From: an uncultured Chlorobiaceae bacterium
GTDB lineage: Bacteria > Bacteroidota > Chlorobiia > Chlorobiales > Chlorobiaceae
Direction of reading: 5' to 3'
Assembly: GCA_903895195.1 (NCBI GenBank)
Contig: CAITSZ010000030.1
Coordinates: 1 to 64,000 of the forward strand
Length of the DNA: 64,000 bases
A model generated the notes under the pieces. It saw nothing but the letters and a program-made list of their open reading frames with translations. It made no database searches and was not told the DNA's origin. Position numbers and translations under genes: made by a program. Within the stretch, counting starts at the first letter, position 1, and each line of letters opens with the position of its first letter. Shown here piece by piece: positions 29,475-35,891 of this stretch.

Positions 29475-30653
29475 TTAAACCAACTCCCGGCCCGGCAACT
29501 CTGTTCCACGATTCATGATATCAAAATACCTGCTGTAACTGAACAAGCGGTTTCGCTTCTGCTTAGTCAGCTCAGTCACAATCCCCAGACGGACAAGATG
29601 CTCAAGTGCTTTGTTCACAGTAGCATGGGTTATACCTGTCTTTTCAACAATCAGTCCTGACGTAGCAATCGGATGTTCTATCAAAACCCTGTGAACCTGC
29701 ACGGTGGATGCTGCTGCCCTGCCAAGCTCAATAATATTTGCCCGGTCTTTGTTCGCTAAATCGAGAAGCTGTTGAGCTGTCTCAACAGCCTGGGTTGCAG
29801 TAACAATGACAGCTTCAGCAAAGAAATCGAGCCATGCTTCCCAGTCACCAGTTATGCGGACCTTGTTAAGGAGTTCGTAATAATATTGAGAATGTGTCTT
29901 GAAATAAAGACTCAGATAGAGCATCGGCTGCTGCAGCACATCCTGCTCACAGAGGAGCAAAGTAATCAGAAGACGACCAAGACGTCCGTTCCCATCAAGG
30001 AATGGGTGAATCGTCTCAAACTGCACATGGGCTAGTGCGACCTTGAGCAGGATGGGGGTAGGTTCTGGTTTATCGTGTAAAAACAATTCCAGCTTTCCCA
30101 TACACTCCATCATCTTTTCAGGCGGTGGAGGCACAAAAGCCGCATTACCCGCTCGGGTTCCGCCAATCCAGTTCTGGCTTTTACGAAACTCACCAGGAGT
30201 ATGGTTACTCCCCCTTCCTTTTGTCAGAAGAATGCCATGAACCTCCCTAATCAATCTTAAAGAGAGCGGAAAGCCTTCAGCCAAGCGCTTCAGACCATAG
30301 TGAAGTGCCCTGACATAGTTGCTGACCTCCAACACATCATTCAAAGGAACTCCCGGCTCCTGATCAAGCTCGAACAACAGAAGATCAGAGAGCGATGACT
30401 GGGTTCCTTCAATCATCGATGACAGGACAGCCTCTTTACGAACATACATATAGAGAAAAAGCGATGTGTCAGGAAGAAGCCTCGAAACACTGTCTAAACG
30501 ACCAAGAGCCAGCAGCGCCTTGTCAAATTTGCTGCGCAATTCCGGAGTCCAGTCAATTGACGGATCCGGTGGAAGTGGAGCAGGAACAAAGGCCAGAACG
30601 CTCTCACCAACCGTCGATACCTTTGCATAATGTCCCTGAAGCTCTCGTTGCAT
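29475..30653 (-). CDS. Fic-domain protein with C-terminal winged helix (class II Fic)
   Basis: 392 residues. The Fic motif HPFLDGNGRLGR starts at His216, so catalysis (usually AMP transfer to a target hydroxyl) should be intact. A self-inhibition motif of class II type, S78-x-x-x-E82-G83, lies in the N-terminal domain. Residues about 310-380 (STVQVHRVLIEHPIATSGLI, VEKTGITHATVNKALEHL) form a winged helix that could bind DNA. Three copies of an 11-bp repeat sit in the promoter and may be its own operator. The gene stands alone as a transcript. Targets are unknown. Confidence 0.9.
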   Translation of the reverse strand: MQRELQGHYAKVSTVGESVLAFVPAPLPPDPSIDWTPELRSKFDKALLALGRLDSVSRLLPDTSLFLYMYVRKEAVLSSMIEGTQSSLSDLLLFELDQEPGVPLNDVLEVSNYVRALHYGLKRLAEGFPLSLRLIREVHGILLTKGRGSNHTPGEFRKSQNWIGGTRAGNAAFVPPPPEKMMECMGKLELFLHDKPEPTPILLKVALAHVQFETIHPFLDGNGRLGRLLITLLLCEQDVLQQPMLYLSLYFKTHSQYYYELLNKVRITGDWEAWLDFFAEAVIVTATQAVETAQQLLDLANKDRANIIELGRAAASTVQVHRVLIEHPIATSGLIVEKTGITHATVNKALEHLVRLGIVTELTKQKRNRLFSYSRYFDIMNRGTELPGRELV

Positions 30654-30667
30654 GCAAATAAGTTTTA

Positions 30668-30719
30668 TCCTAAAATAAGATCAACCATTATTTTAGGATA
30701 TTAACTAATCCTAAAATAA
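30668..30719 (-). promoter_or_regulatory. Triple repeat tcctaaaataa in the Fic gene promoter
   Basis: The 11-mer tcctaaaataa occurs at 30668-30678 and 30709-30719 in one orientation and at 30688-30698 in the other, with starts 20 and 21 bp apart, i.e. two helical turns. The nearest copy ends 15 bp upstream of the Fic start. This regular spacing is what cooperative dimer-binding repressors use. The winged helix of the adjacent Fic protein is the obvious candidate ligand. Confidence 0.7.
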
Positions 30720-30995: not shown

Positions 30996-31340
30996 TCAAG
31001 CAGGAACGCGCTGATTCCCTTTCGTGTAAGATGAGGTCAGCTTGAAGCTGATTCCCTCATTCTTTGTTATAGCGTGAATAACCTGAAAGAGGTTCTCCAT
31101 CCTCGGATTACCTGAAGGTGCCAACATCCTATGTATGCTTTTACTGGATTTATCAAGCTCCTCTGCTAACCTCTCAAAACCTATAGTTGAATTTACCAGA
31201 TCTCGAAGCAGTGCCTTACCAACAGCTGTGTCACCTTCCAGAAATGCACCTATTGCTTCATCAAATAATGCAGCACGAAATTCAGGATCACGCTCTACCC
31301 GTGCTTTGATTGTGTCTTTATATGATCTGCTTAACGGCAT
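30996..31340 (-). CDS. HigA-type antitoxin / XRE-like regulator
   Basis: 114 residues from the ATG at 31340, which has a Shine-Dalgarno-like aagga upstream; a longer frame reaching to 31451 reads through other sequence. MPLSRSYKDTIKARVERDPE and the later LAEELDKSSKSIHRMLAPSG, with NLFQVIHAITKNEGISFKL at the end, match the antitoxin family often paired with RelE/HigB-like toxins. The helix-turn-helix (about 60-90) should repress its own operon. The cognate toxin gene upstream appears broken, so the antitoxin may now act as a free regulator. Confidence 0.75.
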   Translation of the reverse strand: MPLSRSYKDTIKARVERDPEFRAALFDEAIGAFLEGDTAVGKALLRDLVNSTIGFERLAEELDKSSKSIHRMLAPSGNPRMENLFQVIHAITKNEGISFKLTSSYTKGNQRVPA

Positions 31341-31350
31341 AATAATATCC

Positions 31351-31434
31351 TTATGTTTTCTCTCGGCTTTGCTTTTTGAAGGCCTTATGTTCTTCCCAAA
31401 GTTTTTTGGCTCTCTGGATAGCTTTTTTCGGCAT
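31351..31434 (-). pseudogene. C-terminal remnant of a RelE/HigB-like toxin
   Basis: A 27-residue frame (MPKKAIQRAKKLWEEHKAFK plus a basic tail) ends 10 bp before the HigA start, in the position a toxin gene would occupy. Its PKKAIQRAKKLWEEH pattern matches the last helix of Gp49/HigB-type toxins (KTPxxEIxxAxxR). The toxin core is not found in any frame directly upstream, so this is a fragment. Confidence 0.5.
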
Positions 31435-31478
31435 GCACTATGGTAACACATAAGTTACTATTCTCAAACAAATTTTCA

Positions 31479-34800: not shown

Positions 34801-34932
34801 CAGCACAACCTCGGTATACGTCCTCCGTTCCGGCGAAGGCCCATCAGGCGCAATATCAAGCCCAGAGCGGTGACTGTACCCCACGTCACCAAGCCAGCCC
34901 AAAGCCTCCCGTTCAAGTTGATCTTCAGTCAT
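31852..34932 (-). CDS. hsdR: Type I restriction endonuclease subunit R
   Basis: 1026 residues from the ATG at 34932, which overlaps the Fic stop by 4 bp (ATGA). A start at 34947 is possible but lacks that coupling. In the frame counted from 34947, the nuclease PD...ExK is D145, E159, K161 ([20 protein letters not shown]). The motor has Walker [11 protein letters not shown] near 305 and a DEAH box ([13 protein letters not shown]), with the helicase C-terminal domain following. It cuts unmodified DNA far from the recognition site after translocation, together with HsdM and HsdS. A C7 run near the C-terminus is noted as a possible slippage site. Confidence 0.95.
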
Positions 34933-35891
34933 TTCAGAACCTCCCAATGGCCGCCTTTTGCTGCACCGATTCGACGTAACCGGCCATCCTTTTGCAGTTG
35001 TTGCAGATTGCGTTCAATTGAACGGGTTGAAATGCCAATCATGTGAGCGAGTTCCGGAATAGTCATAAAGCAGTTTTTATTGAGTGCATCAATAATTTTC
35101 CCCGACGTTTTCCCCGACGTTATCACCGACGTTTTTATGAGAACTTCCGTCATGGCATCATGCAATGCCTGCAGCATAAATTCAATAAACGGGGTGGCAC
35201 TTGCTATCCTGTCCGCCTCAGCGAGTGCCTCGTAATAGGCCGTTTGCCGCATCCTGATCACCGATTCAACCGGCAGATAAGCCAGTATCGGCTCCCACTT
35301 GCTCAGGATGAGCGTTTGCCACAACCGACCCATGCGGCCGTTGCCATCCGCAAAAGGGTGTATGAATTCAAACTCGTAATGGAAGACAGAGCTGGCAATC
35401 AAAGGATGCACCGGAGCCGATGCAAGCCACTCCAGCAGATCAGCCATAAGTCCTGACAGCATTTTGGCTGGCGGAGCCATGTGCACCAATCCCTTGTCGC
35501 TATAAATACCTACGCCACCCTTGCGGTAATGTCCGGCATCATCAACCAGCTCATCCATAAGCAAACCATGCGCAGCCAAAAGATCACTCTGAGAGTGCGG
35601 CCGCCATTTCGATACCTGTTCATAAGCAGTAAAAGCGTTGCGAACCTCCTGAATTTCACGAGGCAACCCGACAACCGCTTTGCCATCAAGAACATCAGTC
35701 ACCTGCTCAATGCTCAAAGTGTTATTTTCAATAGCAAGGGAGGCCTGAATAGTACGGATGCGATTGTTGCGGCGAAGCTGAGGTGTCAGAGCGCTCTCAT
35801 CCGAATAGCTCCAACGGGTTACAAGTTCCACAATATCAGCCACCTGCTGCACAATCTGCGGTGTGATAGTATAGGGTGGCTGATAACTCAT
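34929..35891 (-). CDS. Fic-domain protein inside the type I restriction operon
   Basis: 320 residues. An N-terminal inhibitory helix contains S51-LAI-E55-N56 ([ST]xxxE[GN]), the Fic motif HPFADGNGRMGR starts at His178, and a C-terminal helix-turn-helix (about 274-318) follows a short linker. All Fic catalytic residues are present, so AMPylation or a related reaction is likely. It overlaps hsdS and hsdR by 4 bp each (ATGA), so it is made as part of the restriction operon. The linker (SVITSGKTSGK) is encoded by a triple 12-bp repeat. Target unknown; it might modify Hsd subunits or act when restriction fails. Confidence 0.92.
   Translation of the reverse strand: MSYQPPYTITPQIVQQVADIVELVTRWSYSDESALTPQLRRNNRIRTIQASLAIENNTLSIEQVTDVLDGKAVVGLPREIQEVRNAFTAYEQVSKWRPHSQSDLLAAHGLLMDELVDDAGHYRKGGVGIYSDKGLVHMAPPAKMLSGLMADLLEWLASAPVHPLIASSVFHYEFEFIHPFADGNGRMGRLWQTLILSKWEPILAYLPVESVIRMRQTAYYEALAEADRIASATPFIEFMLQALHDAMTEVLIKTSVITSGKTSGKIIDALNKNCFMTIPELAHMIGISTRSIERNLQQLQKDGRLRRIGAAKGGHWEVLK
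35096..35131. repeat. Three tandem 12-bp units inside the Fic gene
   Basis: The unit ttttccccgacg is repeated twice exactly (35096-35107, 35108-35119) and once with two changes, ttatcaccgacg (35120-35131). As 12 is a multiple of three, copy number changes would add or remove four residues (GKTS) without shifting frame. It lies in the linker between the Fic domain and the helix-turn-helix. Confidence 0.8.

Follow-up and report, generated by a model that had tools for sequence, protein, structure and literature searches.

The 52-bp element lying directly upstream of the fic gene is very likely (probability of about 0.88) the operator through which an AMPylating anti-phage toxin of SoFic type represses its own gene; neither binding nor expression data are available. 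The comparative analysis shows: (i) the sequence and the position of the element; (ii) its conservation; (iii) a spacing quantised in helical turns; (iv) a co-divergence of its word with the recognition helix and the wing of the Fic protein.

In the window (i.e., the whole stretch of 64,000 nucleotides that was analysed), the element is made of three exact copies of TCCTAAAATAA on alternating strands, with centres 20 and 21 bp apart and gaps of 9 and 10 bp (Table 1). Counted in full, the inverted arms measure 13 bp (30666-30678/30688-30700) and 12 bp (30688-30699/30708-30719). The copy nearest to the gene is 14 bp from the ATG of fic (first base 30653, minus strand). This start codon is conserved across orthologues, and the position of half-site 3 is conserved in L010, L011, L013, L026, L030 and L199. 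The −35 of the window gene is not obvious.

The first-pass annotation, made from the sequence alone, had described three alternating copies with starts 20-21 bp apart ahead of the fic start, and a product ending in a winged helix. Both statements hold, the former as exact matches and the latter in the AF2 model. It had also admitted that the idea of an operator would fail if the 11-mer proved to be a frequent AT-rich word, spread genome-wide without relation to fic. This is not the case: the 2.49-Mb genome contains five exact copies of TCCTAAAATAA, three of them at the fic array, and the paired form TATTTTA-N10-18-TAAAATA is found genome-wide only there. The fic array is also the sole exact alternating 11-mer triple of the window. 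Matches with at most one mismatch number 53 in the genome. An operator serving further genes is ruled out, the two remaining exact copies being single (one intergenic, the other within a membrane-transport gene). The array, unique in the genome, is thus considered as a single-target operator.

Table 1. Positions in the window of the array copies (putative half-sites), of the fic gene and of the DNA-reading elements of its product.
Feature	Position	Strand	Basis
Half-site 3, in gene orientation, nearest to the start codon, TCCTAAAATAA	30668..30678	+	exact match
Half-site 2, middle, opposite orientation	30688..30698	-	exact match
Half-site 1, farthest from the start codon	30709..30719	+	exact match
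SoFic-type Fic gene, 392 aa, Fic_N + Fic + C-terminal winged helix	29475..30653	-	Pfam, PADLOC, structure
wHTH recognition helix, residues 341-355	29589..29633	-	DSSP of the AF2 model
wHTH wing, residues 359-372	29538..29579	-	DSSP of the AF2 model; includes R367 and N368, two of the residues that co-diverge best

The protein contains the Pfam domains Fic_N (PF13784) and Fic (PF02661), and the PADLOC SoFic model matches its residues 19-382 (E=3.6e-119). With the NCBIfam SoFic equivalog NF046030 it obtains 151 bits, below the curated cut-off of 550 bits; it is thus a SoFic relative and not an equivalog. The catalytic motif HPFLDGNGRLGR is intact at residues 216-227 (HPFx(D/E)GNGR type, with His216 as catalytic residue), as is the N-terminal inhibitory motif SSMIEGT. 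The AF2 model (pLDDT 88.8) superposes on full-length Shewanella SoFic (3ZCN/3EQX) with a Z of 39 over residues 8-383. In this model the C-terminal wHTH (residues about 309-385; DSSP) comprises helices 311-326 and 332-339, followed by the recognition helix (343-355 as a helix of the model) and the wing. The gene comes after a type I restriction-modification operon, which consists of hsdM, hsdS, another Fic gene and hsdR, and its neighbourhood is thus of defence type. It belongs to the SoFic defence family, and a protection against phages by AMPylation is inferred from this membership.

The second Fic gene (34929-35891, between hsdS and hsdR) also encodes a C-terminal winged helix. As its start and the end of hsdS overlap, there is no space for it to have a promoter or an array of its own. 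Upstream of fic, an ORF of 151 aa (30996-31451, minus strand) resembles an addiction-module antidote family only weakly (E 0.009), and the analysis identified no gene for a toxin that could be its partner. Likewise, no antitoxin resembling the AS1 of EcSofic was identified for the window fic.

The first-pass annotation had suggested a search for the same 11-mer upstream of orthologues in related genomes. Alternating arrays are indeed found there, the word itself varying by lineage. Close relatives (70-96% identity) have alternating copies at the equivalent place upstream of fic. The word differs between loci, yet the copies within one locus stay matched: it is TTATTTTAGGA in the window, L026 and L199, and TTATTTTACAAT in L030. 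The truncated fic genes of L026 and L030 (67 and about 48 homologous residues, respectively) keep recognisable arrays. In L012 and L014 the outer two copies are kept 40 bp apart and the middle copy is missing. The Fic motif of these two loci reads HPFLYGNGHLGR, so that catalysis is probably lost. The pattern is as if the loss of toxicity had relaxed repression; these are only two cases, and they are related.

As a correction to the first-pass annotation, the array is not tied to this one gene but belongs to the SoFic-type family. Words differ with the lineage: that of L063, a homologue from a non-pathogenic Erythrobacter, is of TCCTTTCTTT type. A homologue on pSymA of Sinorhizobium meliloti 1021 has an array of period 41. 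Homologues were collected from GTDB genomes, from viral contigs and from the phylum of the window, then reduced to 145 representatives with less than 75% identity. These 145 non-redundant homologues span many phyla. The best triple of 10-mers (W, rcW, W) was searched over 150 bp ahead of every start, dinucleotide shuffles and other segments of the same loci being used as controls. A score ≥26 is reached by 49.7% of the 145 loci, vs. 1.1% of the shuffles and 0.55% of the other same-locus segments. For a score ≥28 these values become 26%, 0/1450 and 0/1450, respectively. The same-orientation period is 40-42 bp in 81.6 of the 145 loci (56%), vs. about 5% in both controls (5.3% for the shuffles). 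Outside this 41-bp class, 26 of 47 loci have a period of 30-31, 50-52 or 61-62 bp, for 5.8 expected. Periods of approximately 31, 41, 51 and 62 bp correspond to 3, 4, 5 and 6 helical turns. The one-face spacing put forward in the first-pass annotation is supported by these whole-turn periods and by the conserved upstream arrays, binding itself being untested.

The other period classes were read by eye. Loci of period 31 or 62 have words such as CTAGTAAAG; there are at most five copies, and the −35 (TTGACT) and the −10 (TAAGAT) fall on two of them. In three loci of this type (L166, L188 and L189) the −35 and −10 themselves resemble half-sites; promoter and operator thus seem to be merged. Loci of period 51 have TGAAATAA in four copies, and one copy lies in the −35/−10 spacer. 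With reference to the 41-bp class, period 31 appears to shorten one interval and period 51 to lengthen the other, by about one turn each. A model with constant spacing at one dyad and variation only at the other is thus rejected, again by eye.

The simple 10-mer model gives no clear array in about 30% of the homologues. Below about 35% identity, and likewise in three haloarchaeal loci, the signal is faint or missing. Thirty Fic genes with a different architecture, most of them from one genus, were taken as a negative control: none reaches a score of 26, and their mean equals the background. In the same genus, Fic genes of a different type, of about 505 aa (L273, L274, L276-L282 and L036) have a conserved upstream element of their own, with repeated GCGACA words (TATTTGCGACAAA...GGACGAATAACGCGACAT), which suggests another operator design.

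As regards the promoter, copy 3 ends at a median of 22 bp ahead of the start codon in the homologue survey. Promoter-like sites are present in 28 of 81 loci (13 expected from shuffles), and 16 of the −10s are within 16 bp of the first dyad of the array (about 4 expected). In several homologues half-site 1 overlaps the −10 of the promoter-like site. Repressor sites usually overlap promoter and leader in this way.

Which protein reads the word was addressed by partial Mantel tests on 75 loci with a 40-42 bp array, words being compared in either orientation. Word distance is correlated with wHTH distance once Fic-domain distance is removed (partial r 0.175, 0/2000 permutations). On the contrary, no correlation with Fic-domain distance remains after removal of wHTH distance (r −0.005, p 0.55). 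When the protein is scanned along its length, the signal is highest at residues 325-354. By structural element, the recognition helix comes first (r 0.249, 0/300 permutations), then the wing (r 0.152, p 0.01); neither helix 311-326 nor the linker helix nor Fic_N gives a signal. Taken one by one, the residues R367, A344, N347, E361, T342 and N368, which are located in the recognition helix and the wing, perform best. Without orientation-free matching the correlation is weaker (r 0.10, p 0.01). It must be kept in mind that these correlations are modest and that shared ancestry can make partial Mantel tests anti-conservative, a concern which the Fic-domain and sliding-window controls answer only in part. 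Nevertheless, the word tracks the recognition helix and the wing and not the catalytic domain, which is strong evidence that the Fic protein reads the array. The self-regulation first proposed as a natural idea is supported by this comparative evidence, in the absence of binding data.

The mechanism proposed here is inferred for binding, cooperativity and repression alike. Each 11-bp copy would be a half-site, read by one Fic protomer through its C-terminal winged helix. At least three alternating half-sites on one face of the DNA would be filled cooperatively by Fic dimers; the array of three sites being odd, more than one dimer would be needed, or one dimer would be half-used. Since the array overlaps promoter and leader, the bound protein is expected to shut its own gene, which would hold the toxic enzyme at a low level. 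A bolder reading, not excluded by the evidence but unlikely, is that the alternating array is occupied by SoFic in an assembly that exceeds a dimer and is built by two-fold contacts of two different kinds. Operator DNA would then nucleate an oligomer sized by the number of half-sites, repressing the gene and keeping the AMPylator inactive, and phage take-over, by clearing or degrading the promoter DNA, would free the toxin and derepress its gene at once. The operator itself would thus act as an antitoxin.

Among the rival explanations, the copies might pair into alternative RNA hairpins in the leader of fic, as part of an attenuator or an antiterminator. In favour of this view, adjacent copies are inverted and could pair, and copies 2 and 3 are probably within the transcript. 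However, hairpin arms would predict a better matching of adjacent inverted copies, and there is no such excess: the similarity is 8.84/10 between copies 1 and 3 (direct) vs. 8.86 and 8.79 between adjacent inverted copies. Moreover, the spacing is set in DNA helical turns across families, word divergence follows the DNA-recognition helix, and no Rfam family matches. The hairpins are thus very unlikely. Chance repeats of AT-rich DNA are all but excluded. The word is indeed AT-rich and copies with one mismatch are common, but the exact triple is unique in the window and the paired form in the genome, and the conservation of the array in orthologues and beyond has already refuted this explanation.

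Two other rivals concern the protein and its effect. The array could be the operator of a separate regulator encoded elsewhere. Outside regulators such as WYL proteins control many defence genes, but nothing specific speaks for one here. Against it, the array is found nowhere else in the genome, arrays with different words accompany SoFic-type genes in many phyla, and the word co-diverges with Fic's own wHTH and not with the catalytic domain; this possibility is accordingly given very little weight. Alternatively, the array-bound Fic could activate, or the array could bring the AMPylator to DNA (DNA-triggered activity), repression not being the main role. DNA induces the activity of CbFic2 of Coxiella (PMC10628234), which is in favour of this view. 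On the other hand, the array overlaps promoter-like elements and leader, as repressor sites usually do; CccR, the autoregulated relative that has been studied, represses (PMC9755527); and CbFic2 binds random DNA, whereas the window word is specific. This last rival is also considered as highly improbable.

The autorepressor reading gives the C-terminal winged helix of SoFic, without a demonstrated role in the literature found, a putative one, i.e., that of reader of its own operator. It bears on this role and on how a lone AMPylating toxin stays safe. The comparative evidence predicts a DNA word for each lineage together with the residues reading it, and the words found in nature, about a hundred, each with its recognition helix, constitute a ready training set for winged-helix specificity.

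Several known systems can be compared with the window. SoFic (Shewanella SO_4266; E. coli H397; PDB 3EQX/3ZCN) shares the domain order, the full-length fold and 27-28% identity with the window protein. SoFic is an anti-phage defence, and EcSofic is restrained by AS1, an antitoxin of 47 aa (PMC12249575). DNA binding by SoFic was not demonstrated according to the 2023 paper on CbFic2 (PMC10628234), and no operator for SoFic was described in the literature found. CbFic2 is, like the window protein, a Fic with a C-terminal wHTH; it is dimeric and binds random DNA (PMC10628234), but no operator is known for it. In type II/IV toxin-antitoxin systems (Phd-Doc, AbiEi), cooperative binding at repeated sites in the promoter of a toxic module is also met. 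There, however, the antitoxin binds DNA, whereas in the SoFic type of the window the putative DNA reader and the toxin are in one polypeptide.

The first-pass annotation knew of no operator of this form for a Fic gene, and this needs correction. CccR of Yersinia pseudotuberculosis, a Fic protein with a C-terminal HTH reported to be 29% identical to SO_4266, represses itself via AGATAATCAT-N26-ATGATAATCT, a dimer being required (PMC9755527). With this precedent of 2022, the single one known, a Fic-HTH protein regulating its own gene is no novelty. Both systems have a C-terminal winged helix and inverted half-sites, putative ones in the window, directly upstream of the protein's own gene. They differ in that CccR uses two 10-bp half-sites with a 26-bp spacer (approximately 36 bp centre to centre), while the window has three at approximately 20.5 bp. 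Alternating arrays before SoFic genes are undescribed in the full texts searched, which leave out most subscription papers, preprints and the SoFic PDB entries 9TB0, 9TC4, 9TCH and 9TCL; if DNA were present in one of these entries, as it might be, the finding would be less new. With respect to CccR, what appears to be new is: (i) an alternating array of at least three copies; (ii) its helical quantisation; (iii) its family-wide spread; (iv) the co-divergence of word and recognition helix.
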